Shown: piece by piece, positions 22,189 through 46,628 of the stretch
Layout: each line of letters begins with the position of its first letter
How positions within the stretch are numbered: the first letter of the stretch is position 1
The notes under the pieces: generated by a model
Told to the model about the DNA's origin: nothing
The model's input: only the letters and a program-made list of their open reading frames with translations
Databases searched by the model: none
Source of the DNA: Muribaculaceae bacterium
GTDB lineage: Bacteria > Bacteroidota > Bacteroidia > Bacteroidales > Muribaculaceae
Length of the DNA: 64,000 bases
Direction of reading: 5' to 3'
Assembly (NCBI GenBank): GCA_017473615.1
Contig: JAFUKL010000004.1
Coordinates: 17,420 to 81,419 of the forward strand
Position numbers and translations under genes: made by a program

Positions 22189-22221
22189 TTTGTTTGAAAT
22201 TTTTCACCATTAGTTCCTTTG
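22189..22221 (+). promoter_or_regulatory. Rightward promoter inside the putative invertible segment
   Basis: TTTG at 22189-22192 (another at 22193-22196) and TTCCTTTG at 22214-22221, one mismatch from TAnnTTTG, with 21 or 17 bp between. Transcription would start near 22229 and read into the FHA/kinase/ubiquitin-like operon. If the segment inverts, this promoter would face the recombinase gene and the operon would be off. Confidence 0.55.
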
Positions 22222-22229
22222 TATGAGGA

Positions 22230-22265
22230 CTGTATCCTCTCTTCACAAGAGAGGATACAGTTTTT
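22230..22265 (+). terminator. Perfect 14-bp hairpin with T-run overlapping the right inverted repeat
   Basis: CTGTATCCTCTCTT pairs perfectly with AAGAGAGGATACAG across a CAC loop and is followed by TTTTT. It looks like an intrinsic terminator, yet lies at the predicted 5' end of the operon transcript and 23 bp before the first ATG. It may attenuate transcription or protect the 5' end. The outer part of the left arm lies inside the invertible segment, so the full hairpin forms only in the present orientation. Confidence 0.6.
22238..22252 (+). repeat. Right inverted repeat of putative invertible segment
   Basis: TCTCTTCACAAGAGA, the exact reverse complement of 22064-22078. The two repeats enclose 159 bp, close in size to known invertible promoters of Bacteroides surface loci. 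Confidence 0.8.
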
Positions 22266-22287
22266 AACCCCAAAAAGCTATAATATT

Positions 22288-23046: not shown

Positions 23047-23063
23047 TCTTAACGTTAACGGAG

Positions 23064-25552: not shown

Positions 25553-25574
25553 TTAGAATTCAAAAAGTGTCAAT

Positions 25575-26606: not shown

Positions 26607-26615
26607 AAATACAAT

Positions 26616-27236: not shown

Positions 27237-27261
27237 AAACAACCCTAAAAATACTATCATT

Positions 27262-30374: not shown

Positions 30375-30398
30375 CAATAATAAAACATTAAATAGAAA

Positions 30399-31115: not shown

Positions 31116-31165
31116 TCAGTTATAGTGTGATAAAATTAATTATCAATTTAAAATAAGAAACAGAT

Positions 31166-32197
31166 ATGAAAAAATATATATTGATGCTTGCTGTAGCATT
31201 TGCAGCCGTTTTTTCATCTTGTACCAATGATGAAATACCCGTTCAACAATCAACCTCTTTCAAAATCAACCTGGCAACAGTTGTAGATGGTTTCGCTTCA
31301 ATTGAACTTAGTCCAGGTGAATTGACAACACCTCCTTTTAACTCAAGGTTAAGAGTTTGTCTGTTGGTATATAACAAAGCCGGTGTCCTTGTAAATAAAG
31401 AGATACAATATGCTCAAAGTTATTCTCAAATAATAAGTTCAAAAATGGATTTATCTGAAGGAGATTATACAATACTTGTTATCACAGATGTGGATTTAAC
31501 GGATGAAATATATAATCGTTGGAAACTTGAAGGTGAAGAAAATTTAGCTACAACTAAAATAGTAGGAACCGGTTATATAAAGAATGAATTAGCGATTCTT
31601 GGTATTAAATCCCAACAAATAAAAATAAATAGCAATGACAATATTGAATATAAAATTAACGTTGAACCTGCCGGTGCTATAATAAGAGTTGATTATTATA
31701 ATTGTAATAAATGGGATTTTGTTGAATCTTATGAATTAGCTGTAAAACAAATAAGTTCTGATATAAAATTTGATTCAAACGGGGAACCTCAATATTCTAT
31801 AGAAACTTCTGATGTTTATAAATGGCGTATAAATAGCGTTGATACAAGGTATGAAGAATATTATAACGGACAAGTTTTAGCCGGAGAATATCGATATTCT
31901 TTCTCATTCCCTCAAAAGAATGCTTATTTTAGATTTGAAGAAAACGAAATAGATGGAGATGAGAGTTATAGTGATTTTTGTATTTGTGATATTAATAAGG
32001 GCTGGGGATATATTTTTGAAATAGATACATACGATCTTACAACTCAGTGGTATTATTATGATCCGAGTGCTGATCGTTCACCCGAAAATAAAGGACTATT
32101 GAAAGGTGATTTGAAATTACAAATGACTGATCGGAATTTGCAAAAGGTTGATTTGTCAAAGGTTGCAACTGCTACAAGCATTTATGTAACGGATTAG
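31166..32197 (+). CDS. Predicted outer-membrane lipoprotein, unrecognised
   Basis: 343 residues with a lipoprotein signal ending in VFSSC (lipidated Cys19). The body is beta-rich and AT-rich in codon use, with segments such as SRLRVCLLVYNKAG and SEGDYTILVITD that resemble FimB/Mfa2-type beta-sandwich lipoproteins, but the match is weak. No catalytic motif. Seven bp before the S41 protease gene, so the two are likely made together. Confidence 0.75.
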   Translation: MKKYILMLAVAFAAVFSSCTNDEIPVQQSTSFKINLATVVDGFASIELSPGELTTPPFNSRLRVCLLVYNKAGVLVNKEIQYAQSYSQIISSKMDLSEGDYTILVITDVDLTDEIYNRWKLEGEENLATTKIVGTGYIKNELAILGIKSQQIKINSNDNIEYKINVEPAGAIIRVDYYNCNKWDFVESYELAVKQISSDIKFDSNGEPQYSIETSDVYKWRINSVDTRYEEYYNGQVLAGEYRYSFSFPQKNAYFRFEENEIDGDESYSDFCICDINKGWGYIFEIDTYDLTTQWYYYDPSADRSPENKGLLKGDLKLQMTDRNLQKVDLSKVATATSIYVTD

Positions 32198-32204
32198 ATT
32201 AAGA

Positions 32205-33575
32205 ATGAAAGGTAATCTATTATTGATATTATTTTTAATTACAATTTTTTGTAGCTGTTCATCCGACAAAGACGAACCGTCTTTGTCGGATGAACCGACT
32301 ACTTCCATAGAAGGAGCATCTACTGATTTCAATCAATGGATTTATTCTCATATGAATCATTATTATCTGTGGCGTGAGGATATGCCGGACTCTTTGGAAT
32401 GTGATTATACTATTGATCCGGTATCTTTTTATAAGAACTTGTTCTCTCCAAAAGATAGATTTTCATATTGTTCTTATAATAAAGGTTACAATCCTTCAAG
32501 GATACAAGACTTGTCCAAGTGGGGATTTGCTTATCAACTATATAAGGACAATAGTGGCAATACCTTATATCAGGTACTTTATGTTCAATCACGGCAATTA
32601 AAAGCCCAAGGCTTGAAACGTGGAGACTTGCTTAAATTGAAAGAGAGTAATAGTATATCGACTACGTTCTATATTGTAGAATATAGAAACAGAGAATTGC
32701 AAATAAAGAAAGAAATTATCACGGAAACATTAGGAACTGATTCCGAAAGCAACACGATTCTATTAGATTCCATTTACAATATTAAAGATAAAAACATAGG
32801 ATACCTTTGTTATCTTCAGTTTGACGGCAAGCAGGATCTTACTCGGGTGATAAACCAATTTTATGTGAACGGTATTGATGAATTGGTTCTTGATCTTAGG
32901 TATAACCCGGGAGGTCTTGTTAGTACTTGTAGGTATTTATGTAATTGTATTGTTCCGGAGCAAGGGTATTGCAAAATATTTCAACAACATAGTTTCAATG
33001 AAGTCTATTCTGAAGAGGTCTATCGTGAAACCGGAGATTATCGGGAATATAGCTACTTTGAGAGACCGCCGGAATATACCGATGATAAATTAGGAACAAA
33101 ATTGTATCCGTTAAAGTTATCAAGAATTTATGTACTTACGTCGCAACACACGGCATCGGCAAGTGAGGCTACAATAAACAGTTTAAAACCTTATATGGAT
33201 GTAGTCGTGATAGGGGAGCAAACTACCGGAAAAGGTGTAGGCATGTTTACTCTTTCAAGTCCGGAATATAAATATGCTTTAGTTCCTATAACTTTTCGCT
33301 ATTACAATGCATTGGGAGAAACTGTACCCGATGAAGGGATTGTCCCCGACTATTATGTCCCCGATGGATATTCTACCCTGAAAAGAGAAATAGGCGATAT
33401 AGAGGAACCTCTTTTGCGCCAAGCATTGACGCTGATCTGTCCCGACATTTTCGATTATATGCCAATGGGAAGAGCGTCACACATTGAACAAGAAAACAAT
33501 TATCTCACTCCGGTGGGAGAACCATCATATATAACAGAATTTAAACAAAAACAATATCTATATGAAAACAACTAA
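32205..33575 (+). CDS. S41-family (tail-specific protease-like) lipoprotein
   Basis: 456 residues with a lipoprotein signal (TIFCSCSS, Cys16 or Cys18). The S41 core is recognisable: IDELVLDLRYNPGGL (substrate-strand motif), TSQHTASASEA with the nucleophile Ser and VVIGEQTTGKGVG with the general-base Lys region. The N-terminal part (NQWIYSHMNHYYLW) matches the helical domain seen in Bacteroidetes S41 lipoproteins. It should act in the periplasm or at the outer membrane. A perfect 14-bp hairpin lies inside the early coding region (32261-32291). The 3' end overlaps the next gene by 14 nt. Confidence 0.87.
   Translation: MKGNLLLILFLITIFCSCSSDKDEPSLSDEPTTSIEGASTDFNQWIYSHMNHYYLWREDMPDSLECDYTIDPVSFYKNLFSPKDRFSYCSYNKGYNPSRIQDLSKWGFAYQLYKDNSGNTLYQVLYVQSRQLKAQGLKRGDLLKLKESNSISTTFYIVEYRNRELQIKKEIITETLGTDSESNTILLDSIYNIKDKNIGYLCYLQFDGKQDLTRVINQFYVNGIDELVLDLRYNPGGLVSTCRYLCNCIVPEQGYCKIFQQHSFNEVYSEEVYRETGDYREYSYFERPPEYTDDKLGTKLYPLKLSRIYVLTSQHTASASEATINSLKPYMDVVVIGEQTTGKGVGMFTLSSPEYKYALVPITFRYYNALGETVPDEGIVPDYYVPDGYSTLKREIGDIEEPLLRQALTLICPDIFDYMPMGRASHIEQENNYLTPVGEPSYITEFKQKQYLYENN
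32261..32291 (+). repeat. Perfect intragenic 14-bp hairpin
   Basis: ATCCGACAAAGACG and CGTCTTTGTCGGAT are perfect complements separated by AAC. It lies within codons ~19-29 of the S41 lipoprotein gene, just after the lipobox, with the same arm and loop sizes as the hairpin at 22230-22260. Confidence 0.7.
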
Positions 33576-34803
33576 ATGTATTTTATTTTTGGCAGCTGCA
33601 TTAGGCTGTTTTACACAACTAAACGCTCAGGAAGGACTGAAAATGGTTCTTAAGAACGGGTCTGAACTTAATGGTTATATCTCACGCCAGCGACCGGGTG
33701 AGAATTTCACATTTTCTTCAACGAGTGCGACAATAATCCTGCCGGCAACGGAGGTTTCAAGCATTACCGACAATCAAGTGAAATATACAAATTTGTCGGC
33801 TGAGTGGGCTGAATGGGCTGAAGAAAATAATGCTTTTATAGGAGAAGATGAAAATCGTGTGCTTGTATTAAGTAACATCATAAAGAAAAACGGTACAGTG
33901 AACCAAGTGAGAATACTCGAACGCGGTGCTAAAATCAAGTACTATACCGTAGAAAGCGATACTCACACGTTAAATTGGGACACAATAAGTGTAGTAAAGG
34001 CTGAAACGCGTTCGAAAGAATTGCTATCGGGAGTGAACCGTTGTTATAAGTTGAAATCGGGAATAGAATATGAGGGAGAATATGTGGAAGAAGTTCCCGG
34101 AGAGACTGTAAGTTTGTTTAATAAAAACGGATATGTAGATGTGTTTAATACGGCCGAGGTGCTTAAAGATACTCGCGTAGGTGTTAATCCTAATCAAAGT
34201 CTGTTCGAACAGTCTTCGCTTCTTGATGTCGTTGAATTGAAGAAAGGCGGTACTTATAAAGGTATTATTTTTGAAAGAAATTACTTTGAACAGCCAAGCG
34301 ATGACTATCTCCTAATACAATTGGAGGATGAAAAGATCATGAGTGTTAAGCTTGATGATATCGCAGAATATCGAAAGGAAACTAATGAGAAATATAATCC
34401 GTTAATAGATGTTTTCCTTGAGGAGAATGAATTCATGCTAAATCGTCATGAAGCCATAGGGTATGTTACTGAAGAAGTTAAGGGTGTTATTTGCTTTGTC
34501 CCGGATTCCGCAGTGGTAAAATTGCAAAAAGGATTGATTTCTCTTGAGACAAAATTGAAAAACCCGCTACAGAGCCAACAATTGAAAGTGTTGAAAGCAT
34601 ATCAGTATAAGGATAAAAAGAAAAAGACCTCTTTCTACGGTTTCACTTATGAAGATATCGTTAAGTCTGCCATACAGCCGATAAAGGTGGAAACAAGCGT
34701 TAACGGAACAACCAAGATGGATTATAACATTCCTGCTCCGGGCTTTTATGTGGTGTATAATCCGTTGACAAAGGTAGCGATTCCGTTCCGTCTGCATAAT
34801 TAA
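33562..34803 (+). CDS. Secreted protein with internal beta-strand repeats, unrecognised
   Basis: 413 residues with a signal peptide (TQLNAQ, ~1-22). Three units share the pattern LKxGxxxxGxI/Y: LKNGSELNGYISR, LKSGIEYEGEYVEE and LKKGGTYKGIIFE. This suggests a repeated SH3-like or Sm-like small barrel. No catalytic residues are evident. The start overlaps the S41 gene by 14 nt, which supports coupled expression. Periplasmic or outer-membrane location is inferred from the signal peptide. Confidence 0.78.
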   Translation: MKTTKCILFLAAALGCFTQLNAQEGLKMVLKNGSELNGYISRQRPGENFTFSSTSATIILPATEVSSITDNQVKYTNLSAEWAEWAEENNAFIGEDENRVLVLSNIIKKNGTVNQVRILERGAKIKYYTVESDTHTLNWDTISVVKAETRSKELLSGVNRCYKLKSGIEYEGEYVEEVPGETVSLFNKNGYVDVFNTAEVLKDTRVGVNPNQSLFEQSSLLDVVELKKGGTYKGIIFERNYFEQPSDDYLLIQLEDEKIMSVKLDDIAEYRKETNEKYNPLIDVFLEENEFMLNRHEAIGYVTEEVKGVICFVPDSAVVKLQKGLISLETKLKNPLQSQQLKVLKAYQYKDKKKKTSFYGFTYEDIVKSAIQPIKVETSVNGTTKMDYNIPAPGFYVVYNPLTKVAIPFRLHN

Positions 34804-34849
34804 GAATAATATGTTAAGTCTTAGATAACAACTGAAAAAAAGACCGGAT

Positions 34850-35767
34850 ATGAAACGTTTTATTACAGTGATGTGTGTGGTTCTGCTATCGGTTTCGGTA
34901 GTTTTTGCACAAGAGATAACACATAAAGTGAAAAAGCACGAAACCATTGCCTCTATAGCAAAAACTTATGGAGTTTCGTCCGATGATTTGTTAAATGCCA
35001 ATCCTACTCTAAAGTCGCGTATGTATGTGGGTATGGTTTTGAATATACCTGTGGCAAAGACGGCAGAAGTCAGTCAACCTAAAAAATCAGCTGAGCCTAA
35101 AATTAAGCAGAAAGAGAGTCGGCAAACCGTTACTCAAAAGAGCGAGCCGAAAATTGTTCAATCTGAAATAAGAGAAGACAAAATCAAGGTCAAAGATGAA
35201 AATAATGCGGTCGATGAGAATGAGGTTGAATCTGAATTTACTCGTAGAGCCGGTAAGGGTGGAGTAAATATGGAGATGTTTTGGGGATTTCTTGAAAATC
35301 CGCATGATATGTATGATTGGTTTGGTCATGGTTCTTTAATGGCTCATTTTAAGTATAAATACTATCTGCATGATAATATTTATGCCGGAATCGGTTTGGG
35401 GTTTGGTTGGTCTGTCTTTGATACAGATGAAGATAAAATGGAATATGATATGAAACAAACATGTTGGTTTGTACCAATCCCGATAGAAATTGGTTTGGAT
35501 TTAGCTCCCCAATCAAAAATTGCGTTAATACCAAGTTTGGGATTGAATGCGAATATTTGTGTTTCTGAAGAAACTGAAATTGACTCGAAAAAAAAGAAAA
35601 ATAAAATGGGTGGTGAAGTCGGGCTTGAAGGACGAATTGGGTTAGCATTGCGTTTGAGTGAAGGCTTTGCTATAAAAGCGAGTTATAATACACCTTTCAG
35701 TGATGAAAACAAAGCGTTTTTTGGAGAGGATGGCTATCTTACAATTGGCTTTGTGTCAGGTTTTTAA
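34850..35767 (+). CDS. LysM-domain outer-membrane beta-barrel protein
   Basis: 305 residues with a signal peptide (VVFAQ, ~1-20). A LysM domain follows at ~23-67 (HKVKKHETIASIAKTYG, NPTLKSRMYVGMVLNIP), which binds peptidoglycan. A charged linker (~68-125) leads to a C-terminal barrel-like region (IYAGIGLGFGWSVF, EVGLEGRIGLALRLS, ending YLTIGFVSGF). The layout would connect peptidoglycan with the outer membrane, as OmpA-type proteins do. Confidence 0.83.
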   Translation: MKRFITVMCVVLLSVSVVFAQEITHKVKKHETIASIAKTYGVSSDDLLNANPTLKSRMYVGMVLNIPVAKTAEVSQPKKSAEPKIKQKESRQTVTQKSEPKIVQSEIREDKIKVKDENNAVDENEVESEFTRRAGKGGVNMEMFWGFLENPHDMYDWFGHGSLMAHFKYKYYLHDNIYAGIGLGFGWSVFDTDEDKMEYDMKQTCWFVPIPIEIGLDLAPQSKIALIPSLGLNANICVSEETEIDSKKKKNKMGGEVGLEGRIGLALRLSEGFAIKASYNTPFSDENKAFFGEDGYLTIGFVSGF

Positions 35768-35802
35768 AAGATTGGGAATAAAATAATAGAGTAATAATAA
35801 AT

Positions 35803-36375
35803 ATGAGAAAAATAACAATAGGGCGTGCTTCAGATAACACGATAGTGTTTTCATCACCAACGATAAGCGGTCATCATGCCGATGTGTTAGTGTTTGACGA
35901 TGGAAGAGTCGTTTATACCGATCACTCCTCAAACGGAACATGGGTTAATGGAAGCCGGTTGCATAATGAATCTTATGAAATCAGGGAAAATGATAGAGTT
36001 ATACTTCCCGGAAATGTGCTGCTTGATTGGTCTATGCTGCATATAAGAACTCCAAAAACTCATTTTGAAACATACAATTCCAACTCCGGGGGAGTAAAAC
36101 AGGGATATTCCCATCAGTATGCGGGTCAAATTTTAAAAAATCGTCCAAAAACGAAAAAACCATTAAAGAATTTGTTATATGGACTAAAATTTATTTTGAT
36201 TCCTTCTACTGTCTGGTTCGTTTTGCATTTTATTGAAGAAGGTACCGATTCAGATGGAATTACAAGTAGTGAAGCATGGATAATGTATTCTGCTATTGGG
36301 CTTTTAACAGTAAATACTTGCTTATTTATATTTAATCGAAAATGGCAAAAATTAATAGATCATTGGTTACCATAA
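35803..36375 (+). CDS. FHA-domain protein with two C-terminal membrane helices
   Basis: 190 residues. FHA domain at ~1-80 (TIGRASDNTIVF, ISGHHA, SSNGTWVNGSRL). Two hydrophobic segments near 127-146 and 158-175 form a hairpin in the membrane. It lies between the LysM protein and the ubiquitin-like gene and resembles the start of the FHA protein at 26616. It probably brings phosphorylated partners to the inner membrane. Confidence 0.84.
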   Translation: MRKITIGRASDNTIVFSSPTISGHHADVLVFDDGRVVYTDHSSNGTWVNGSRLHNESYEIRENDRVILPGNVLLDWSMLHIRTPKTHFETYNSNSGGVKQGYSHQYAGQILKNRPKTKKPLKNLLYGLKFILIPSTVWFVLHFIEEGTDSDGITSSEAWIMYSAIGLLTVNTCLFIFNRKWQKLIDHWLP

Positions 36376-36411: not shown

Positions 36412-36741
36412 ATGATGACAGACGAATTTTATAATAGTGATGAATTTATTATCTTTTTAACTATAGATGGAACTTCTTACGAAGAGGTAGAAGTAAGGGT
36501 ATCAGACCCTTATAAGACCATCCGAGACCAAATAAACAGTATCGTGACGGTATTTGAACTGCCTAAGATAGACAACGGAGGCAATCCTATTCAGTACCTG
36601 ATCGGTCAGATAATGGAGGACGGCGGCGAACCGGAGATTCTTGAATTTGAGGATGCCAACGGACGTGAACAGGCGTTGATTGATTATGACATTCAGTCGG
36701 GCGACCATCTGCATTTGATTTCAGTTCCGATTGCCGGATAA
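36412..36741 (+). CDS. Ubiquitin-like beta-grasp protein ending in Gly
   Basis: 109 residues. The pattern fits a beta-grasp Ubl: an N-terminal strand pair (EFIIFLTIDG, EEVEVRVSD), a helix (KTIRDQINSIVTVF), then strands ending GDHLHLISVPIAG. The C-terminal residue is Gly (AG), as needed for adenylation by an E1, so no processing is required. Identification leans on the adjacent genes: E2-like 22 bp downstream, then JAB, RING and E1 genes. Bacterial Ubls of E1/E2/JAB operons have this size and ending. Confidence 0.78.
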   Translation: MMTDEFYNSDEFIIFLTIDGTSYEEVEVRVSDPYKTIRDQINSIVTVFELPKIDNGGNPIQYLIGQIMEDGGEPEILEFEDANGREQALIDYDIQSGDHLHLISVPIAG

Positions 36742-36763
36742 TACAGTAAAATTATAGCATGAG

Positions 36764-37420
36764 ATGAACGCAACTATCAACGATTATAACCAAGAGGAAC
36801 TCACCGGACGTGATGCACGCTTATGGAAGGAGTGGAAAGAGCTTGACATGTTATGTGCAAAGCGTAAAGCTACAGCCTCCAATCCTCGCCGTCCATCGCT
36901 GTCGTATATAATCCGTAGGAAGAATGTTCTTGGGCTTCCTACGGAATATGAAATATGGTATCGAGTGAAATCTATCGTGGGAGTGAAAGGAGACACGACT
37001 CCTCGCGAGCCTGTATTCGGCTATCTACACAAGATGAGTATTGTGCTTCCCAACAATTATCCATCAGCCGACGGAAATCCTATATTTACTTTCCGCACCG
37101 ATATATGGCATCCCAATATCCGATCTTCAGGAGGTTTTAAAGGGCATGTATGTCTCACTATAAAGGAGATGGGCGTATTGGCATCGTTGAAGGACTTGGT
37201 GCTGCGTGTAGAGCAGTATTTGAAGTACCAGCTTTACCATGCGCAAAACACTTATCCTTATCCTGAAGACCAAAATGTGGCGGAATGGGTGCGAGAGGAA
37301 GGCGAACCTAACGGCTGGGTGAGATTCGGTCAGGACAAGCCTGAACAGGAAGATACTCCCCCCGTAGTAAGTAAAAAAGATACAGATAAAGGATTAACTA
37401 TAAATTTAAAGACAATATGA
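36764..37420 (+). CDS. E2-like ubiquitin-conjugating enzyme
   Basis: 218 residues with a UBC fold. Diagnostic residues are LPNNYP (95-100, equivalent to the FPxxYP element), HPN at 116-118 (IWHPNI) and catalytic Cys130 in GHVCLT. Helices follow (SLKDLVLRVEQYLKY), and the C-terminal ~35 residues are charged and disordered-looking. E2 enzymes accept the Ubl from E1 as a thioester and pass it to substrate. No membrane helix. The stop overlaps the next start by 4 nt. Confidence 0.9.
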   Translation: MNATINDYNQEELTGRDARLWKEWKELDMLCAKRKATASNPRRPSLSYIIRRKNVLGLPTEYEIWYRVKSIVGVKGDTTPREPVFGYLHKMSIVLPNNYPSADGNPIFTFRTDIWHPNIRSSGGFKGHVCLTIKEMGVLASLKDLVLRVEQYLKYQLYHAQNTYPYPEDQNVAEWVREEGEPNGWVRFGQDKPEQEDTPPVVSKKDTDKGLTINLKTI

Positions 37421-38526
37421 AAAAAAGAATTTCAATATTATTTCTGTTGCTGTTGACAATGACTACAGTCTCTTTTGCTGATGTGCAGAAACATGTAAAA
37501 TTGGATAACGTTAAGAAGACAGGAGAACGTATAGTGTTTGATTATTTCGATATATGTTTGAAACTTACCGAAGATGCGAATGATTATATAAAAGTTGATG
37601 TGGATATAGAAAACACCGATGAAGAGAAAGGTATATTGCTTTTTGGTAGAGCCTATTCGGAAGATGAACTGAAAAAAAGGCAACCAAAGATTAAGTTCCA
37701 TAAGGATTTTTCAGGTTCTAAAGGCAAGAGAATTACTGACGCATACAGTCCTCATATCCGCAATAATATAGTTTATATAGAACCGGGTGAAAAAACTGAT
37801 TTATTGACAATGATCTTTGAAAATAAAGGAGGAGACGGAACATTGAATTTACCTGTTTATATGATTAATTATAAAGAGGGCAGGAATTCAGTGCCATTTG
37901 AAAAGAATGAGCTTGTTATATCAAAGGAAGAGAAAGTGGAGTTGGTAGTAGAGGTGGAAGTTAAACAAGAGCAAGGGCAAGAGCTGGAGCAGGAACAGGA
38001 AAAAGTTGATCCTAATATAGTCAGTGAATATAATAAGTTGAAAGCTGAATATGACACTGCATCTTTCTGTAACAACGAGGCTCATGAGCCTTCATTGGCT
38101 GAGCAAAAAATGGAATTTCAGAATAAGATAGATTCACTGAAAGAAAAAATAAACGATGAAATATCAGCCAAGACCCTTCTTACTGGAAGTTCGTTGTATG
38201 ATGAGTATGACGCATTGAAAAAGAGCTTGGATACGCTGGATCTATCCAAAAAAGAAAGTGATTGTGGCGAGCATGGAGAACCTAATGTACACTCCTGTTG
38301 GTTATGCAGTTCTTCGTTAGAACAGATGTATAAAAGTTTGGATAAAATCTATCAGGAAATATATAGCAGTCATGGTCAAGACCGTGAGGCTAAAAAAGAG
38401 AAGTATTATTATGATGTTCGTGGTATGTATAGATGTGCGCAACAACGTGAAGAATGGCAACATAGCGAATACAAGGATAAAATCGAAAAATTTTATAACA
38501 AGACTATGGAGTTCTACAAAAAATGA
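37417..38526 (+). CDS. Secreted coiled-coil protein with Cys/His cluster, unrecognised
   Basis: 369 residues with a signal peptide (VSFAD, ~1-21). Residues ~25-170 look beta-rich (YIKVDVDIENTDEE, IVYIEPGEKTDLL). An acidic/Gln-rich segment near 180-200 (EQGQELEQEQEK) leads to a long helical region with heptad-like spacing. A Cys/His group sits near 283-297 (CGEH and HSCWLC), possibly a metal site or disulfides. Coupled by ATGA overlap to the E2 gene. Function unknown; probably a periplasmic partner of the membrane-bound JAB and RING proteins. Confidence 0.75.
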   Translation: MKKRISILFLLLLTMTTVSFADVQKHVKLDNVKKTGERIVFDYFDICLKLTEDANDYIKVDVDIENTDEEKGILLFGRAYSEDELKKRQPKIKFHKDFSGSKGKRITDAYSPHIRNNIVYIEPGEKTDLLTMIFENKGGDGTLNLPVYMINYKEGRNSVPFEKNELVISKEEKVELVVEVEVKQEQGQELEQEQEKVDPNIVSEYNKLKAEYDTASFCNNEAHEPSLAEQKMEFQNKIDSLKEKINDEISAKTLLTGSSLYDEYDALKKSLDTLDLSKKESDCGEHGEPNVHSCWLCSSSLEQMYKSLDKIYQEIYSSHGQDREAKKEKYYYDVRGMYRCAQQREEWQHSEYKDKIEKFYNKTMEFYKK

Positions 38527-38588
38527 TTAACTGATTATGCATAATATTATTTTATCATATACCAATAAAAACGAAAAAACTATCTGAT

Positions 38589-40679
38589 ATGGATATGAAA
38601 ATTTTAGTCAGGAGATGCTTAATAAGTATTCTGATGATGAATGTTTTTGTGCCTCTCTTTGCGGATATAGATTGGAGGGATGTAGTAATAGAAAAAGATT
38701 TAAAATCAGACTCTGTAATAAGAGTTAAGAGCATAAAAAATAATAGTGATAATGATATAAAAATAATATTAAGAGATCACAATAACGATGTCTGCTATGA
38801 GGTTGAAATCCTCAAAGGTGAAAGTAAAACAATAAATAAGGAATGTAGCAGAATAGATGCTAATACATCAAGCGTTAACACTTCCTTGTGGAATAAAAAA
38901 AAGACAAAGGAAGAATGGGATAAGGAACATCCTGTAGCTCGTGATGAGAAAATTAAAGAAAAGAAAGAAGCTGAAGAAAAAAAGGAGGAAGAGAAAAAAG
39001 AAAACCCGGTTGTTCCTATAGATCCAAATCCAGATCCGATAAAAGAGGAGGTAAGCGGGGAGGATGTTATCAAAGATTACAAGAATGAACTTGAAAAAGA
39101 TTCTTTATTGTCTCTTTCAGCAATAGATAATGATAAGAATATAATTAATTCTATCGGTAAATCGGAAGATAAGGTTGCATACATAGATCACCATAACCTA
39201 AAAGGTTACATTAAAGAAAAATCTGAGGAATTAACAAAGCAATATACGGATGAAGAGATAGAGACAAAAGCCGATCTTTTCTTAAAACGTTATGATTATA
39301 AGATAAAAAGCGATTTCAATTGTAAGGATAGTATAAAGAGTATCATAAAAGAACGGTTGGAAATGCGTAAAGCGACTATCGATCAGTTAAAGAATTTGAT
39401 TGATACCGTAGACCGAAACAAGGAAACAAATAATTATTTACCGATAGGTATCGGTGTCATAGTAGTTCTTGTGGGATTGATTGCATGGATAATACTATTA
39501 GCCAAGAAGAAAAAAGATGGGCGTAAACAGGATAATATTCAGCAATCACCGGATACAGGCTTGTCACCGGCTATAGTTGTGAAAAAAACTACTTCAACGG
39601 TGTTGAAAGAGCAAAGTATCGAGAATGTCGTGAATAATAAAGCCTATTACAAAATCGAGTGTTCTGAATTTTGTGATGATTCGGCGGTAAAAAGCATATA
39701 TATCAAGAATACGTGCATAAAGGCAATCTATAATATGTATGCCGATGATTTGAGAAATCCCAATAATCCCAAGGAAGACGGCTGTATGGTTCTCGGTCGC
39801 TGGATTTGCGATGAAGTGGAAAAAGAATATTACGTATCATTGGAAGAAATCGTATTGCCGGGCAATGATGCTGTATTCAAGGAATATGAATTGAACTTCG
39901 GAGGAAAAATCAAGTTGAGAGTTGCCGAAAAATTACGCAAGTTGCGTAAGGAATCCAATTTGCAATACGACTTGACCTGCTGGGTACACTCACATCCGGG
40001 ATTAGGTGTTTTCTTCAGTAACTCCGACTCCGGTGTGCAGATGCAGCTCAAGCATCCCACACATCCTAATTTCCTTATTGCGATAGTGGTGGATATACTC
40101 ACACCGCAACAGGAGTTCGGAATATTCACATTCAAGCACGACTCTACTATTAATTCCAAGAATGATTTGAAGAAGATGTATTCTTTAGAGGAATTATATA
40201 AATGGGCAATAGAAAGCGAGCGATTCTCTTATAAACCGGAGGACTATTATAATTCATTGTCTAAGGCAGACCGGGTAAATGACAATTGCCGGAGCATAAT
40301 GCTAAGTAACGGTGCCATTATCGATATATCTTCACTTGTAACCGGAAGAAATACAGGATTATCGGGGTTGGCATACGGCTATGAGTTGCGTAATAACGGA
40401 AAGACCGAATTGATAATCAACTCAATATCCAAGAGCGAGAATGCCAACGGCGATGATTTATTAGGATGCTTTGTTATTGGAACACATTGCGACATGCAAA
40501 CGATAAGAAATGTGATGTCGAAATATGCCGGAGAGATAAGATTTGTAATGTTCTATTCCATGCCGGAAGAAACCGTTACACTCATTCCGGTGATAAACAA
40601 TCAAATGAGCATGGATTCGAAATATTTTGCAGAAGAAAAATTAGAAGATTTAAAGATATGGACAAGACGAAAAAGATGA
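38589..40679 (+). CDS. Membrane-anchored JAB/JAMM-domain peptidase
   Basis: 696 residues. An N-terminal signal-like segment (~5-25) leads to a ~260-residue extracytoplasmic part with a Lys/Glu-rich stretch (~105-140). One membrane helix spans ~284-305. The cytoplasmic JAB domain (~370-520) has the full JAMM signature: Glu396 in KEDGCM, and HSHPGLGVFFSNSD giving His467, His469 and Asp480 (HxHx10D). A second ~150-residue region follows. JAMM peptidases remove Ubls from targets; since the Ubl here already ends in Gly, deconjugation is the likely role. The start could also be the Met at codon 3. The stop overlaps the RING gene start. Confidence 0.9.
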   Translation: MDMKILVRRCLISILMMNVFVPLFADIDWRDVVIEKDLKSDSVIRVKSIKNNSDNDIKIILRDHNNDVCYEVEILKGESKTINKECSRIDANTSSVNTSLWNKKKTKEEWDKEHPVARDEKIKEKKEAEEKKEEEKKENPVVPIDPNPDPIKEEVSGEDVIKDYKNELEKDSLLSLSAIDNDKNIINSIGKSEDKVAYIDHHNLKGYIKEKSEELTKQYTDEEIETKADLFLKRYDYKIKSDFNCKDSIKSIIKERLEMRKATIDQLKNLIDTVDRNKETNNYLPIGIGVIVVLVGLIAWIILLAKKKKDGRKQDNIQQSPDTGLSPAIVVKKTTSTVLKEQSIENVVNNKAYYKIECSEFCDDSAVKSIYIKNTCIKAIYNMYADDLRNPNNPKEDGCMVLGRWICDEVEKEYYVSLEEIVLPGNDAVFKEYELNFGGKIKLRVAEKLRKLRKESNLQYDLTCWVHSHPGLGVFFSNSDSGVQMQLKHPTHPNFLIAIVVDILTPQQEFGIFTFKHDSTINSKNDLKKMYSLEELYKWAIESERFSYKPEDYYNSLSKADRVNDNCRSIMLSNGAIIDISSLVTGRNTGLSGLAYGYELRNNGKTELIINSISKSENANGDDLLGCFVIGTHCDMQTIRNVMSKYAGEIRFVMFYSMPEETVTLIPVINNQMSMDSKYFAEEKLEDLKIWTRRKR

Positions 40680-43066
40680 TTTCTAAAGTATTGGCGGTAA
40701 TAGTGATGCTGTTAGGCGCAACCGGCATACTTCAGGCACAAAAAGTAGAAAAAATAGAGTTTTGTGACAAGCATTATGAGTATAAACCCGGAAAGGACAG
40801 TATTACATTATTCTTTAACTTGCTGGATTCAACAGGCAACCATGTCAAAATATCAGGAAATGATATAAAATTAGGAGATAATTTTGACATAAAAGAGGAC
40901 GGAGAGTATATTAATCCGGAAAATTCCAAAATAACGGTTTTAAGTTCCGGACAACGTATTTCTGCCGAATATACCTTTTCTGTTCTTGTGGATTTGACAA
41001 TACCGCAAAGCGGGAAAGATGATATTTATAAAACAATCAGGAAATTGGTTGACAGTGCTCCTGACAGTTGTGTGTATTTGTCGTTTTTCGGTGATGAAGT
41101 ATCGGAAAGCCGTGTTGTGACTAAGGCTAACTATAAGGAATTTAAGAATAACTTTGAGAAAAAGGCTGAAAACAAATATTTTTATAGCGGATTGTATGCT
41201 AAATTGCTTGAGTTTGGTAAATCTGAAGTGTTTGAAGACAGCGTAAGAGCAGAGACCGGATACAAGAAAAACACAAAAATTGCCGATAGAGCTGAATCAA
41301 ATAAAGAGAAGAATATACTGTTTGTGTTTACCGAGGGAGGGAATGATCCTACGGAAGAGGATTTGAGTTTTATTGAAGTGACCGGTTTTCAGGGAGATTT
41401 GTCACATATAGCTCCCAAAGTCGTGGCTTTGTATTATACTGAAGAAAATGAAGAACCAAATATCAAGAAGACTTTAGAGGGTATATGCAAACCGCGAAAT
41501 ATTACGGGAGACATAATAAAGGAACGTGAGGGAAAATATCTGCCTGCTAATGAAATGGAGGATATTCTGAAAAACTTTGAGGAGGTCGTAAATGATGCTA
41601 TGTATGATTATGCGTTTACCTATAAGGTGGTCGGTTCTAAGAATTATTCAGGTAAAGTCGGATATGAGGCTGAATGGAAAAACAATATAATCGGTTCAGG
41701 TGAATTCTCGGTAGGTACAGCCGAAAGGTCATGGCCTATAAGAGTGGAGGATACCGGTGATATCGCATTAAAGTATCTTTATGCTTTGCTTATCACGTTA
41801 GGAACCATTGCATTTTTCTTTATAGTAACAAAGATACTTGTACCGTATATACGGTTTAAGTCATTTTCTCTGAAATATTACAAAAGGTACGTTCCTGAAG
41901 CAAATGTTTCAAGACGAATATGTCATTATTGCAAGCAGGATATTCAACCGGGTCAATATGTGGTAATGAAGTGTAAACACATTATGCACGTATTTTGTTG
42001 GCAACAGAATGGTTATAAATGTGCCGAGTACGGGCAAAATTGTAAAACCGGGATTCAAAGTCACATAGAGTGGAGTGGTCTGTTCAGTCTTAATTCAATA
42101 AAAGATTGTGGACAATCCATTTCGGGTATCATAGCCGGATTTATCAGTTGGATTTGTTATGAGATTTTTGGAGGAGGCTTATTGGATGTTATATCAACGC
42201 ATATAGTAGAACTTTTTTATAGCAGTAAGATAGAAAACGGAACTTTATTTACTGATTGTGTGACTAAGACTTCTGCGTTTTTGATTATCGGAATATTGTT
42301 GGGATTCTTCTTATCACTGATTTTCAGAAGTAATGATGAATATAAGAAGAAAGATTTCAAGGTGTGGTGCAAGATACTCGGATTGTCGATACTGACCGGT
42401 GTCATCGGAATGATTGCTTTTGCATTGGGTGCTAACATAATGTGTTTACTCTTGTCTGCAACAGAGATGACATACATCCCATGGTATTGCTCATTGCCTG
42501 CTTATATATTGTTCTCTATAAGCGTATCATTGGCTTTGACAATAAAATCCACCATTCCTGTGAAGAGCGCATTGCTTGGCGGTTTATGCTCGGCACTGAT
42601 AGGCTTTATCGTCTTATATTGCTCAAGCTATGCCGGTAACACAAGCGGTAGGATGAATATGCTGTTGGATTTCATTATATATGGCGGCGGTCTGGGCGCT
42701 TCGTTGGTTACGGTAAGAATGCTCGCAGAAAAATATTTCTTGGTTATTCAAAACGGAGTCAGAGCCGGTCAAAAGATACCTATACATAAATGGATGAATG
42801 CAACCGGCGGTGGAAACAAAGTCACAATAGGAATGACCGGGGAGTGTGAAATCCAAATGAATTGGGAGAAGAGTAATAAAGTAGCTAAGGAACACGCTCA
42901 ATTATTTATCGATTACGATAAGCAATTGCCTATGCTGAAACCGTTGGCGGCAGGAGTGGTTTTCAATACCCGTGCCGAATTGCCTGTAGGTAAGCCGTCG
43001 GTATTGTCTAACGGAGACAATTTCAAGATAGGTGATACAATTTTCTTATATCAAGAAACCGAATAA
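40676..43066 (+). CDS. vWA - membrane - RING-H2-like - multi-pass - FHA-like protein (candidate E3)
   Basis: 796 residues from the ATG at 40676 (ATGA overlap with the JAB stop; 40658 is also in frame). Signal peptide ~1-22. A vWA-like domain spans ~99-260 (FSVLVDLTIPQSG, LFVFTEGGND) with a degenerate metal site. Membrane helix ~368-388. A RING-type cluster follows: C416, C419, C433, H435, H438, C441, C449 and C456, an H2 arrangement with a wider last pair. About six further membrane spans (~480-685) and a C-terminal FHA-like region (~705-795: VTIGMTGECEIQM, AKEHAQL, LSNGDNFKIGDTIF). RING and FHA parts would face the cytoplasm, vWA the periplasm. RING proteins act as E3 ligases. Direct proof is lacking. 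Confidence 0.82.
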   Translation: MISKVLAVIVMLLGATGILQAQKVEKIEFCDKHYEYKPGKDSITLFFNLLDSTGNHVKISGNDIKLGDNFDIKEDGEYINPENSKITVLSSGQRISAEYTFSVLVDLTIPQSGKDDIYKTIRKLVDSAPDSCVYLSFFGDEVSESRVVTKANYKEFKNNFEKKAENKYFYSGLYAKLLEFGKSEVFEDSVRAETGYKKNTKIADRAESNKEKNILFVFTEGGNDPTEEDLSFIEVTGFQGDLSHIAPKVVALYYTEENEEPNIKKTLEGICKPRNITGDIIKEREGKYLPANEMEDILKNFEEVVNDAMYDYAFTYKVVGSKNYSGKVGYEAEWKNNIIGSGEFSVGTAERSWPIRVEDTGDIALKYLYALLITLGTIAFFFIVTKILVPYIRFKSFSLKYYKRYVPEANVSRRICHYCKQDIQPGQYVVMKCKHIMHVFCWQQNGYKCAEYGQNCKTGIQSHIEWSGLFSLNSIKDCGQSISGIIAGFISWICYEIFGGGLLDVISTHIVELFYSSKIENGTLFTDCVTKTSAFLIIGILLGFFLSLIFRSNDEYKKKDFKVWCKILGLSILTGVIGMIAFALGANIMCLLLSATEMTYIPWYCSLPAYILFSISVSLALTIKSTIPVKSALLGGLCSALIGFIVLYCSSYAGNTSGRMNMLLDFIIYGGGLGASLVTVRMLAEKYFLVIQNGVRAGQKIPIHKWMNATGGGNKVTIGMTGECEIQMNWEKSNKVAKEHAQLFIDYDKQLPMLKPLAAGVVFNTRAELPVGKPSVLSNGDNFKIGDTIFLYQETE

Positions 43067-43090
43067 ATAACATAATTAAAAATTATCAAA

Positions 43091-43846
43091 ATGAAAAAAA
43101 TTATTTTATCAGCTATCCTGTTTGCAGCAGCAGTTGCCGGATATGCACAAAGACCAGACAAATTAGAAATAGGACCGTATGAAGTGGAATATTTTGGTGA
43201 AGGGGATTATAAAGCTCGTCTTCGCAAAGGCATAGACCTTTATAAGTATTTTGATTTGAAAAGGGATACGGTAATCAAAAAGAACGTAATCATGCCAAAT
43301 CCTAAATCTGAATCCAACCCTGTAAAGTGTGGCATTCAAGCAAGTGTATTCATGAGTTTGCCGAGATTTGCCGTAAGCGGAAATTCTAATATGTTTGGTG
43401 TAAGCGGAAGCTGGAAACAACAATTCGGTAAAAAATACTATTGGAATGCCGGTTTATCATTGGGATATTTATATGGAGAATACAGCAGCCCGTCTTACAG
43501 AGAGGATGCCATGATAGAAGTAGGAATACCTCTTTCAGTGGAATTTGCCTGCTTGGATTACAAAAAATCATCGGTTTATGCAGGAATAGGGTTGACTCCT
43601 ACATTTTACAGCACATTAAAAGCAGATGAAATTGACGAAAACGGTGCAACGGTCAATGGCGAGAAAGATTCTGGCTTTTTAATCGCTCCGCGAGTGGATT
43701 TCGGTGGATATATACCGCTAAGCAAGCATATACTTCGTGTAGGTATATTCGCTGAATATAAGATAAATTGCTCAGGTGACGTGAATATTTATAAAGAAAG
43801 AATAGGCAGGGCATTTGTAGGAGCGAATGTCGGCATAATTTTCTGA
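43091..43846 (+). CDS. Outer-membrane beta-barrel-like protein
   Basis: 251 residues with a signal peptide (AGYAQ, ~1-19). The mature part ends in alternating strands (YYWNAGLSLGYLYG, SSVYAGIGLTPTFYS, RVDFGGYIPLSKHILRVGIFAEYKI, AFVGANVGIIF), as in small Bacteroidetes barrels. It lies between the RING gene and the E1 gene (24 and 22 bp gaps). It gives the conjugation half of the operon its own envelope protein. Confidence 0.78.
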   Translation: MKKIILSAILFAAAVAGYAQRPDKLEIGPYEVEYFGEGDYKARLRKGIDLYKYFDLKRDTVIKKNVIMPNPKSESNPVKCGIQASVFMSLPRFAVSGNSNMFGVSGSWKQQFGKKYYWNAGLSLGYLYGEYSSPSYREDAMIEVGIPLSVEFACLDYKKSSVYAGIGLTPTFYSTLKADEIDENGATVNGEKDSGFLIAPRVDFGGYIPLSKHILRVGIFAEYKINCSGDVNIYKERIGRAFVGANVGIIF

Positions 43847-43868
43847 TGCTGTAAAATAAAATTATCGG

Positions 43869-45080
43869 ATGCAGAAGAAAGAAACTTATGAATGGGGAGA
43901 AGGAGTGTACACACTCCTCTCCTGGTTCAAAAAAGAAAAAGTTAAAAACGCCCGGGTTTTGGTTGCCGGTGCGGGTGCTTTAGGCAACGAAGTTGTGAAA
44001 AATCTTGCATTATTCGGTATAGGTCATATCTATGTGGTGGACTTTGACCGAATAGAGATTTCAAACTTGACCCGTTCTGTCCTTTTCAGAGAAGAAGATG
44101 CGTATAACCATTCTTATAAATCGGAAATTGTAGCAAAACGGGCTATGGAAATTAACCCGCAGATAAAAGTTGTGCCGATAGTAGGCAACTTGTATTCCGA
44201 AGTAGGTTTTGGTCTGTATAAGTCGGTGGATGTTATTATAGGATGCCTTGACAGCCGTATTGCCCGGTATTATTTAAATAAATTAGCTATGCGTGCAGGC
44301 AAAACATGGATAGACGGCAGCATTGAGAATATGATCGGTGTCGTCAGGGTTTTTACCCCCGGAGTAAGCTGCTATGAATGCGGACTTTCTCGAGAGGAGT
44401 TTAATAACATCATGCTTAGGTTAGGTTGTGCCGATGTTGTAAGGATGCAGGAGAATGCGGGGCGTGTAGCAACAACGCCTATAAGTGCATCTATTATTGG
44501 AGCAATGCAGGTGCAGGAAGCAATGAAAATAATACATCTTTCCGCAGGTGAGACAGAGGAGGTTCCGTTCAAGACATTGCAAGGAAAGATGCTGAGATAT
44601 GAGGGCATGACAAATTCCGTGAATATATATAAATATGCTTCTTGGAAGAGTATTTGTCCTGCTCATGAAGAATGGAGCAATATAGTGAAAGCAGAAAGTC
44701 TGTCGGCAGAGGATACCGTTGACACCGTATTAAAGACATTGAAAAGTATTCTTAATGTTAATGCCTTAGAAATTAACATGAGGAATAACAAATTTATAGA
44801 TAAGATTGTATCGGATAAACCGGAAAAGGAATTTATGGTAAAAATTCCGGAGTCACAACTTGATGATTATATCGCAAATAATGAAGAACTGAGGAAGTTA
44901 AGTTATAAAACCATCTTCCATAAAGATTTCATTGAGAATATAGATGAGACATTCCCATATAAGGATATGTCGCTTAAGGATATAGGCATTCCGTTATTTG
45001 ATATAATGCAGGTTTCAACAGAAAAAGGTCAATATTTCGTAGAACTTACTAAGGACGCATCAGTATATAATTTGGCATAA
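43869..45080 (+). CDS. E1-like (ThiF/MoeB superfamily) Ubl-activating enzyme
   Basis: 403 residues. The adenylation domain has GAGALG at 34-39, VVDFD (Asp58 region), SNLTRS with Arg69, and IGCLDSR (catalytic Asp128). A zinc site is likely formed by C168/C171 (CYEC) and C263/H266 (CPAH). The segment LGCADVV to ATTPISASIIGAMQVQEA places candidate thioester Cys187 before the conserved TTP. The C-terminal ~130 residues form an extra domain (Ubl- or E2-binding, inferred). It closes the operon and is followed by a terminator at 45138-45178. It should activate the Ubl of 36412-36741. Confidence 0.93.
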   Translation: MQKKETYEWGEGVYTLLSWFKKEKVKNARVLVAGAGALGNEVVKNLALFGIGHIYVVDFDRIEISNLTRSVLFREEDAYNHSYKSEIVAKRAMEINPQIKVVPIVGNLYSEVGFGLYKSVDVIIGCLDSRIARYYLNKLAMRAGKTWIDGSIENMIGVVRVFTPGVSCYECGLSREEFNNIMLRLGCADVVRMQENAGRVATTPISASIIGAMQVQEAMKIIHLSAGETEEVPFKTLQGKMLRYEGMTNSVNIYKYASWKSICPAHEEWSNIVKAESLSAEDTVDTVLKTLKSILNVNALEINMRNNKFIDKIVSDKPEKEFMVKIPESQLDDYIANNEELRKLSYKTIFHKDFIENIDETFPYKDMSLKDIGIPLFDIMQVSTEKGQYFVELTKDASVYNLA

Positions 45081-46592: not shown

Positions 46593-46628
46593 TGAATCTG
46601 ATTTTTTTGAGTTTATTTTTTATGCAGA

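Follow-up and report, generated by a model that had tools for sequence, protein, structure and literature searches.

A predicted ubiquitin-like conjugation operon of a Muribaculaceae bacterium, with related sets in type VI secretion loci of Bacteroidota

Our analysis supports the presence of a complete ubiquitin-like (Ubl) conjugation set, comprising a predicted Ubl modifier, E1, E2, RING protein and JAMM protease, in one operon of a Muribaculaceae bacterium, with FHA, kinase and envelope genes attached, as the original prediction had proposed. We consider it rather probable that this set represents a reversible Ubl-conjugation module, with a membrane E3 and a membrane deconjugase, of TssN-less Bacteroidota contractile injection systems.

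The window, that is, the whole stretch of 64 kb analysed here, carries between positions 36412 and 45080 genes for the Ubl, the E2, a predicted periplasmic protein (p37417), the membrane JAMM protein, the membrane RING protein, a predicted outer-membrane protein (OMP2) and the E1, all on the + strand (ORFs and Pfam; Table 1). With the corrected start of the RING gene the successive intergenic gaps are 22, -4, 62, -22, 24 and 22 bases; the five components of the prediction are found where they had been placed, on one strand and with gaps of -22 to 62 bases. To collect relatives we scanned with a 12-row E2 profile, to which T6SS-bearing genomes contributed 10 rows, and kept 80 of 87 relatives. 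Genes in these 80 loci (L numbers) are mechanical ORFs with HMM labels, and T6SS gene names come from profiles seeded on genome G137. Several of the loci belong to genomes that also bear G numbers, examples being L088 (G056), L090 (G012), L094 (G218), L097 (G1068), L098 (G137), L103 (G275), L146 (G926), L147 (G863) and L163 (G166). The proposed search for the same set in relatives recovered E1, E2, JAB, Ubl and RING together in 62 of the 80 loci, and the motifs of the operon are not a matter of chance because they are conserved across these relatives. Set-bearing strains include Barnesiella sp. An22, Xylanibacter muris PMUR and Mediterranea massiliensis.

Table 1. Features of the window, with window positions (aa, amino acids; TM, transmembrane segment).
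Feature	Position	Strand	Basis	Description
Tyrosine recombinase/integrase	20699..21985	+	Phage_int_SAM_5 3.9e-20, Phage_integrase 5.9e-8	
Upstream phospho-signalling and envelope block	22219..36375	+	Pfam	
Block, first part				FHA 22219, Ser/Thr kinases 23064 and 24641, PP2C 25575, FHA-TM 26616
Block, middle				FHA2-TM-trypsin 27262, WG repeats 28830, OMP 30399, lipoprotein 31166
Block, end				S41 peptidase 32205, 33562, LysM-OMP 34850, FHA-TM 35803
Ubl modifier	36412..36741	+	family profile vs PDB	109 aa, C-terminal -IAG
E2 conjugating enzyme	36764..37420	+	Pfam UQ_con	218 aa
p37417, predicted periplasmic	37417..38526	+	HMM relatives	369 aa, signal-peptide-like start
Membrane JAMM protease	38589..40679	+	motif and profile	696 aa: signal-peptide-like start, N-terminal region, TM, JAMM domain, C-terminal domain
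Membrane RING E3 candidate	40658..43066	+	RING pattern and profiles	802 aa: signal-peptide-like start, vWA-like region, TM, RING, several TM, C-terminal FHA-like domain
OMP2, predicted outer-membrane protein	43091..43846	+	by eye (signal-peptide-like start, barrel-like)	251 aa
E1 activating enzyme	43869..45080	+	Pfam ThiF	403 aa, one ThiF domain

The Ubl of the window has no Pfam match of its own. When a profile of 34 Ubls was compared with the PDB, the best 60 of 272 matches (E up to 5) were ubiquitins or ubiquitin variants, single matches among these 60 lying mostly at 0.0004-0.03, and the segment LxDYNIQ..LHL stands in the same register as in ubiquitin, at an equal number of residues from the C-terminus. 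The terminal Gly claimed for this 109-residue protein is there, in a C-terminal -AG, and recurs in 77 of 82 Ubl ORFs of the 80 loci. The E2 matches Pfam UQ_con (2.6e-6, 27.5 bits; cut-off 27), and its profile matches eukaryotic E2s down to 7e-9. Both of its predicted landmarks, HPN at residues 116-118 (37109-37117) and the putative catalytic Cys130 (37151-37153), are present and conserved, W-H-P-N and C being invariant in 12 of 12 aligned sequences and WHPN..C occurring in 80 of 80 loci.

The enzyme described as E1/ThiF-like carries a ThiF match over residues 22-258 (1.9e-49); its PDB matches include UBA7, UBA6, SAE2, MccB and others, and it matches Citrobacter BubCD at 1.6e-6. The candidate catalytic Cys187 is invariant (10/10), a position that rests on the E1 alignment, as a loose motif-count pattern for this residue was not relied on. 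GxGALGNE and CYxC are present in 74 of 74 proteins, and the CxxC at 168/171, together with C263 and H266, likely provides zinc ligands. A conserved C-terminal domain is present, the PDB profile search of which returned six weak matches (best 0.35); no E1 that would point to a UFD was among them.

In the JAMM protein the expected HxHx10D takes the form H467-x-H469-x10-D480, accompanied by E396 and S477; the motif is invariant in 10 of 10 aligned proteins and the H-x-H..S..D pattern occurs in 65 of 66. The match to Pfam Prok-JAB (0.016) lies under the cut-off, and profile matches comprise Rpn11 (1.4e-10), CSN5 and AMSH-like proteins. The TM near residues 285-310 was placed by eye, and relatives have a TM at the same place. 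The gene is absent from 10 of the 80 loci in the DNA examined, though these are not cut at the set.

The RING protein was first seen as an 866-aa ORF at 40466, the true start of which is most likely 40658, since its residue 65 is where the proteins of the relatives G056, G218 and G012 start; the G137 protein aligns from residue 50. The Cys/His cluster (residues 422-462 of the 802-aa protein, 41921-42043) reads C-x2-C-x13-C-x-H-x2-H-x2-C-x7-C-x6-C. The eight ligands of the RING-like cluster first proposed are present, but the last pair is C-x6-C, where a textbook RING has C-x2-C. This segment alone matches zf-RING_16 at E=4.8e-5 (23.4 bits; cut-off 27.4), and the RING profile finds mostly RING E3s in the PDB (RCHY1, 2.4e-4); among 36 RING segments, 33 match zf-RING_16, 31 zf-RING_2 and 27 Prok-RING_1. 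The pattern occurs in 73 of 75 proteins and all eight ligands in 36 of 36 alignment rows, the 35 relatives there having been chosen by that pattern; several ligands are missing in G360 and G454. A TM near residues 371-391, placed by eye, is seen also in relatives, and the FHA-like domain spans about 42800-43063. Support for the vWA-like region is weak, its best PDB profile match having E 0.26; Pfam VWA and FHA are found in 3 and 4 of 11 full-length relatives, respectively, and neither in the window protein itself. Here and below, the folds of the Ubl and the RING, and the topology, chemistry, target and role of the proteins, are inferred, the folds from sequence profiles.

The conjugation genes are under constraint, with pN/pS against locus L087 of 0.08 (Ubl), 0.15 (E2), 0.14 (E1) and 0.29 (RING), at synonymous sites near saturation; JAMM, p37417 and OMP2 are less constrained (0.37-0.49 against the same locus). 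Neither p37417 nor OMP2 has a significant Pfam family. HMM relatives of p37417, a fast-evolving protein with 28-40% identity to those of L087, L089 and L091, occur in 61 of 80 loci, and those of OMP2 in 14 of 80.

The genomic context of the relatives, absent from the first reading of the sequence, is that of a type VI secretion system (T6SS). T6SS genes are found in 79 of the 80 loci, the remaining one being a 6.7-kb contig, and in all of these 79 the recognised T6SS and Ub genes have the same orientation. In 72 of 74 loci E1 is followed by tssG as the next gene recognised, many loci have the set between VgrG/PAAR-type and baseplate genes, and a further gene (gene X) is recognised in 60 of 80. 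Pfam identifies in G137 TssC (PF17541), TssD, VgrG domains and TssK, core genes held in common with T6SSiii, and Ub-locus profiles of TssB, C, E, F, G, K, VgrG, Hcp and ClpV match canonical loci. Across 297 genomes of the family, TssC and E2 occur together in six, TssC only in two and E2 only in one (Fisher 2e-10); in a sample of the phylum an E2 match was found in 4 of 395 genomes (the window's, G360, G454 and G476). G056 and G012 have TssC on a different contig from the set, which is adjoined by baseplate genes. In another family, a diverged set whose RING protein has Pfam VWA and FHA shares a contig with a contractile injection system, at a distance of about 20 kb. G476 falls outside the pattern because it has E2 (E 4.4e-4) and JAB only, with no T6SS gene in 19.5 kb. 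Distances among Ub proteins follow those of TssG (r 0.92-0.96; 0.78-0.88 for three proteins tested within the main group), a correlation also expected from linkage alone, and those of VgrG at r 0.44-0.55, over fewer loci.

What these loci share with T6SSiii does not extend to TssN at the curated cut-off. As far as the portions consulted of one study go (Bongiovanni 2024, PMC10781749), T6SSiii is the only T6SS type in the phylum and its membrane complex, TssNQOPR, occurs in whole or in part in all; TssN is the hub of this complex, has an EccD-like ubiquitin-fold domain and binds TssK, and TssR has a vWA-like domain. Among 25 T6SS-bearing genomes, E2 was found in 10, TssN in 7, both (at the curated cut-off) in none and neither in 8; over 26 genomes E2 and TssN above cut-off never occur together, and none of the 11 E2-bearing genomes has TssN above the PF17555 cut-off. 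In the set-bearing G1068 a different contig matched TssN below threshold (E 0.0016, 18.2 bits; cut-off 30.3), and a TssN profile built here matched nothing in the Ub loci. Single-sequence searches, which are weak, with TssR, TssP, TssO and TssQ of one canonical locus, named from gene order, found no match in the 80 loci, and the TssP search gave one protein each in G360 and G931. TssN as a distant homolog of the RING or the JAMM protein was rejected (hhalign probability 0.7% and 2%). E2 and TssN are both missing from G097 and G647, whose T6SS loci form the sister group of the main Ub-bearing clade.

The T6SS link is not visible in the window itself, since no T6SS genes were found in its 64 kb or in the remaining 17 kb of the contig, and neither TssC nor VgrG in its genome (78% complete, 51 contigs; the VgrG search without positive control). 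The sheath, tube, spike and baseplate genes of T6SSiii, present in relatives, are absent from the window locus, and no gene X was found in the window either. The module may therefore serve an apparatus whose genes lie elsewhere or are lacking from the assembly, or have been reused for envelope signalling. The latter possibility, in which gene X and the T6SS genes were lost from a derivative now working in kinase-linked envelope signalling, deserves serious thought although the odds are somewhat against it; it agrees with these absences and with the constraint on the core genes, but the genome is incomplete and fragmented, Bacteroidota T6SSiii loci are often split (PMC10781749) and the window contig may be chimeric.

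Parts of the phospho-signalling and envelope block that precedes the operon recur in the same order upstream of clpV in two T6SS loci: FHA, FHA-trypsin, WG, OMP, lipoprotein and 33562 in G097, and FHA, kinase, PP2C, FHA, FHA-trypsin and 33562 in G647, separated from clpV by a kinase and a WG gene. No relatives of the S41 and LysM-OMP genes were found beside T6SS genes in these two genomes. The integrase lies at the left edge of a low-GC block (0.377, against 0.42 at 1-20000 and 0.411 at 46600-64000); no 13-mer was common to the flank intervals tried for integration sites. Carriage by plasmids and by viruses was rejected, as neither 72,556 plasmid records nor a pattern-based viral-contig scan yielded a relative of the E2.

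In the mechanism we propose, the E1 would adenylate the Ubl at its C-terminal Gly and hand it to Cys130 of the E2, and the RING protein would steer conjugation at the inner membrane, its vWA-like region predicted to be periplasmic and its RING and FHA-like domains cytoplasmic. The FHA-like domain may read the output of the linked Ser/Thr kinases and PP2C, and the membrane-anchored JAMM protease would take the Ubl off. In nearly all relatives the module goes together with a T6SSiii-like apparatus for which no TssN was found; its likeliest targets would therefore be apparatus parts, in the baseplate or membrane complex, on which the Ubl might allow reversible docking or license firing. A bolder version, which we offer tentatively and think rather unlikely as a whole, is that in a T6SS subtype of gut and rumen Bacteroidota a free Ubl, covalently attached by E1, E2 and RING and released by the membrane JAMM, replaces the fused ubiquitin-like domain of TssN in a phosphorylation-gated cycle of assembly and recycling, a like module serving the contractile injection system of another family.

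The position of many sets between VgrG/PAAR-type and baseplate genes would also suit a Ubl that is attached to the cargo of the T6SS (effectors, Hcp, VgrG, PAAR) as a loading or export tag and that the JAMM trims before or during loading. This seems unlikely to us, as E1 adjoins the baseplate gene tssG, the Ub distances track TssG more closely than VgrG (the latter over fewer loci), and both the E3 and the JAMM protease are predicted to sit in the membrane. Less likely again is a mainly non-covalent, structural Ubl with accessory enzymes, after the manner of YukD/EsaB, the EccD domain or the cytoplasmic domain of TssN: the G360 Ubl resembles YukD (1.3e-5, 26.3 bits, just under the cut-off of 27) and the TssN fold and TssK binding reported in part of PMC10781749 fit, but the catalytic residues of E1, E2 and JAMM are near invariant and the terminal Gly is widely kept. 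An antiviral module of CBASS or Bil type, the role mainly ascribed to other bacterial E1-E2-JAB-Ubl sets in what we consulted of PMC12687455, is very improbable and was set aside, because the PADLOC matches are confined to E1 (E1-E2, 1.9e-15), both kinases (PD-T4-6, to 3e-59) and PP2C (PDC-M21C, 3.4e-11), which read as general enzyme folds, Ubl, E2, p37417, JAMM and RING have none at E 0.01, the 20 window proteins scanned with Pfam include no CD-NTase, and nearly all loci carry T6SS genes.

The preferred reading, a conjugation module of injection systems, has to be set against earlier work. Burroughs, Iyer and Aravind reportedly predicted, in 2011, bacterial RING E3s accompanied by E1, E2, JAB and YukD-like Ubls. 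The operons of that RING-linked class unite E1, E2, RING, JAB and Ubl as the window does, and the Prok-RING_1 matches are a further likeness; as to its YukD-like Ubl, the G360 protein resembles YukD below cut-off, whereas the family profile of the window Ubl matches ubiquitin. A UFD at the C-terminus of the E1 is another trait of this class; the window E1 has a conserved domain there, with no E1 among its PDB profile matches. The differences from the class would be the setting among T6SS or contractile-injection genes, the RING protein with its vWA-like/TM/RING/TM/FHA-like architecture, and the attached kinase/FHA block. The FtsH-type vWA-MoxR ternary conflict systems, in the portions consulted of Kaur 2020 (PMC7159879), also share the enzyme set (JAB, E1, prokaryotic RING E3, Ubl, E2) and the vWA theme, but have Ubl and E2 in one protein and MoxR, FtsH and typically caspase-like effectors as partners, in place of the T6SS baseplate genes found in relatives of the window set.

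Like the window, Bil, CBASS Cap2/Cap3 and Bub have E1, E2 and JAB enzymes that work on a modifier; the window differs in its separate E1, E2 and JAMM genes and in its predicted membrane E3 and membrane JAMM. As far as the consulted parts of PMC11354881 describe Bil, BilA is a tandem ISG15-like Ubl, where the window Ubl is single, and the Bil E2 has a CEHH arrangement (C, E at +6, H at +8, H at +13), where the window E2 has M136, V138 and K143, and HPN. The Bil E1 has an inactive and an active adenylation domain against one ThiF match here, and CBASS Cap2 is an E1-E2 fusion with a CD-NTase target. In the features tested, the predicted distinctness from CBASS and Bil is upheld. The suggestion that the arrangement may be undescribed holds in part: among the titles, abstract openings and passages covered by our literature search, no Ubl cascade in a T6SS was found, so that the contractile-injection link is the part not found in print, but RING E3s with Ubl sets had been predicted or described before.

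If the preferred reading is true, Ubl conjugation in bacteria, so far linked mainly to antiphage defence, would be tied to machines by which animal-gut bacteria inject proteins. With its membrane RING protein, in a layout like that of eukaryotic membrane ubiquitin ligases, the cascade would also bear on the question of the origin of E1-E2-E3 systems. The presence of a Ubl kit inside the T6SS clusters of nearly all relatives points to tagging that runs the injection machine, and suggests a possible answer to how Bacteroidota T6SSs without recognisable TssN are anchored.

The predicted set of genes for a ubiquitin-like protein (Ubl), an E2, a RING protein, a JAMM protease and an E1, closely spaced on one strand, was borne out: seven plus-strand genes follow one another with gaps of at most 62 bases (see table), the RING reading frame most likely starting at 40658 rather than at 40466. 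Among the window proteins, the E2 (2.6e-6) and the E1 (1.9e-49) had direct Pfam support, the JAMM protein (Prok-JAB, 0.016) and the RING protein (zf-RING_16, 0.0025) matched below the Pfam cut-offs, and the Ubl gave no match in the Pfam scan.

Location of the ubiquitin-like (Ub) set, its relatives and associated features
Feature	Location	Strand	Content
Ub set, window	36412-45080	+	Ubl, E2, secreted protein (37417), membrane JAMM protease, membrane RING protein, outer-membrane-like protein, E1
T6SS locus, genome G097	L061-L062		parts of kinase/FHA/trypsin block
T6SS locus, genome G647	L072-L073		parts of kinase/FHA/trypsin block
Diverged set, genome G360	L023/L024/L185		E1, Ubl, E2, JAMM, RING
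Diverged set, genome G454	L025/L026		E1, Ubl, E2, JAMM, RING
Hcp-like protein, genome G275	L020, 5751-7847		698 aa, C-terminal Hcp-like domain
First of two Ubl-like genes	L087, 8094-8474		no terminal Gly; C-terminal extension

In relatives, this set is linked to type VI secretion system (T6SS) genes. The E2 search found seven matches in 297 genomes of the window's family, and in the six E2-bearing genomes other than the window's own, T6SS genes adjoin the Ub set. In one of them (G137), Pfam recognised TssC (4.6e-133), TssD (1.3e-34), TssK (2.7e-5), VgrG domains and a ClpB-type AAA protein, with TssB below threshold (1.2e-3); its TssG, TssE and TssF candidates had no match in the Pfam scan, and their profiles matched the counterparts in the canonical Bacteroidota system, T6SSiii (best E values 4e-47, 4e-27 and 5e-84). 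TssC was found in eight of the 297 genomes, six of which also carry the E2; TssC alone occurs in G097 (85% complete) and G258 (79%), and E2 alone in the window genome (Fisher 2e-10; 3e-11 without the latter). Two same-genus genomes among those listed, G021 and G042, have neither.

A wider scan with the E2 profile, covering 84,980 species with one genome apiece, returned 87 relatives; the 80 kept were all from Bacteroidota taxa as far as recognised and included Barnesiella sp. An22, Xylanibacter muris PMUR, Parabacteroides distasonis An863 and Mediterranea massiliensis. T6SS genes lie within 10 kb on either side in 79 of the 80 loci, the sole exception (L121) being a 6.7-kb contig, and in all 79 the T6SS and Ub genes that were recognised lie on a single strand. 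In 72 of 74 loci the E1 is followed, as the next recognised gene, by tssG, mostly a few tens of bases and at most 212 away; in the other two, the E1 is the last recognised gene of the stretch. A subgroup (L153, L158-L166 and genome G166) has the order E1-TssG-TssK-TssE-TssF-Ubl-E2-RING with no JAMM gene recognised, and its inspected Ubls end in -PG. An uncharacterised protein, u17157, is encoded upstream of the Ubl in 41 of the 80 loci; inspected copies end in QPxGAW[LI]W, and it may serve the PAAR-type gene next to it as an immunity or adaptor protein. The Hcp-like protein of L020 is a possible Hcp-fused effector.

A diverged set occurs in two genomes of another family, G360 and G454. Domain matches are clearer in G360 (JAB 2.8e-8, VWA_2 1.6e-7, FHA 3.2e-8), whose Ubl matches YukD just below the cut-off (1.3e-5) and ubiquitin at 9e-4. 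The neighbours of the G360 set include PAAR (2.6e-12) and a giant protein with eCIS_core (5.2e-17), and the same contig carries, at a distance of about 18-37 kb, a contractile injection system with tape measure (3.8e-84), tube (3.5e-28), three gp19-like proteins, sheath (1.8e-10), Pvc16_N (3.9e-25) and spike (5.2e-19). The set of G454 has a sheath match about 44 kb away. The RING segment of both lacks several ligands and reads DPITQ, which may recall a U-box.

Family profiles served to assess the folds of the Ub proteins. The one built from 34 Ubls gave 272 matches up to E 5 against all PDB sequences; the 60 listed were all ubiquitins or variants, single ubiquitins among them scoring mostly 0.0004-0.03 and polyubiquitins far lower because of their repeats. 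From the aligned part (L-x-D-Y-N-I-Q...L-H-L) to the C-terminus, counted by hand beyond the alignment, Ubl and ubiquitin have the same number of residues, so that the Ubl -AG would occupy the position of the ubiquitin -GG. The profile of 36 RING segments had 36 PDB matches with E up to 1; most were RING E3 ligases, led by RCHY1 (2.4e-4), and a handful were LIM proteins or others. Pfam recognised zf-RING_16 in 33, zf-RING_2 in 31 and Prok-RING_1 in 27 of the segments. The 35 segments from relatives were selected by a Cys/His pattern that fits 73 of 75 RING proteins, and their ligand conservation is thus partly by choice. The JAMM profile matched Rpn11 (1.4e-10), CSN5 and an AMSH-like protease, and the E2 profile eukaryotic E2s (7e-9). 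Of 11 full-length RING proteins, Pfam found VWA in three and FHA in four, and neither in that of the window.

Across the 80 loci, the E2 motif is present in all, the JAMM pattern in 65 of 66 proteins, the E1 nucleotide motif in 74 of 74 and a C-terminal Gly in 77 of 82 Ubl reading frames. Two neighbouring Ubl-like genes occur in L087, L093, L101 and L143. Between the window and L087, synonymous differences are near saturation and pN/pS is low for Ubl (0.08), E1 (0.14), E2 (0.15) and RING (0.29) and higher for JAMM (0.37), the predicted outer-membrane protein at 43091 (0.38) and the predicted periplasmic protein at 37417 (0.49); selection thus maintains the core Ub genes.

The window itself is an exception. 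No T6SS genes were found in it or in the 17 kb of its contig that lie outside it; neither TssC, by a search positive in other genomes, nor VgrG, by a search run without positive control, was found in its genome (78% complete), and gene X, a transmembrane protein recognised in 60 of the 80 loci, was not found in the window. The upstream block (FHA-kinase-PP2C-FHA-trypsin-WG-OMP-lipoprotein) is partly matched in G097 and G647, where the counterparts keep the same order and lie upstream of clpV; in G056 and G137, kinase, WG and PP2C genes come after the baseplate genes as well. Given these T6SS-linked counterparts and the lack of T6SS genes nearby, the window joins two T6SS-associated modules without machine genes. 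The machine may lie elsewhere in the genome, be unassembled or have been lost.

According to Bongiovanni 2024 (PMC10781749), TssNQOPR form the membrane complex of T6SSiii, the sole T6SS type found in the phylum, all of which have the complex or part of it, and tssN lies between tssK and tssG. Among 26 genomes, 25 TssC-positive and the window's, TssN was above cut-off in seven and the E2 present in 11, never together (Fisher 0.013 in the 25); eight TssC-positive genomes had neither. The E2-bearing genome G1068 shows a TssN match below threshold (E 0.0016) at another place in its sequence, and our own TssN profile found no match in the Ub loci. In a 47-row tree of TssC, G012 and G056 were scored Ub-bearing by genome and G258, on the basis of a 4.8-kb contig, as having neither. 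The Ub-bearing rows require three changes, forming one main clade, a deep group and G735 next to the TssN clade; long branches leave the deep parts unsure. The sister of the main Ub clade is formed by G097 and G647, which carry neither TssN nor the Ub set. The Ub set thus accompanies a TssN-less T6SS and is not the only TssN-less arrangement.

The suggestion that the arrangement may be undescribed holds only in part. RING-bearing bacterial Ubl operons were reportedly predicted in 2011 by Burroughs, Iyer and Aravind. A related Ubl set is described in PMC7159879. The enzyme set is therefore a variant of bacterial Ubl operons already predicted or described; no account of its placement in T6SS or another contractile system turned up in the literature searched, the coverage of which was incomplete.

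Most likely, the E1 would activate the Ubl, the E2 would carry it and the membrane RING protein would place it; FHA-like domains would supply a phosphorylation input, and the membrane JAMM protease would remove the Ubl. Ten loci without a JAMM gene, although not cut at the Ub set, count against this scheme. In view of the coupling to tssG, the predicted membrane location and the absence of TssN, the likeliest target of the Ubl, ahead of rival readings in which it serves as a cargo tag or a scaffold or in which the module acts in defence, would be the injection apparatus itself.
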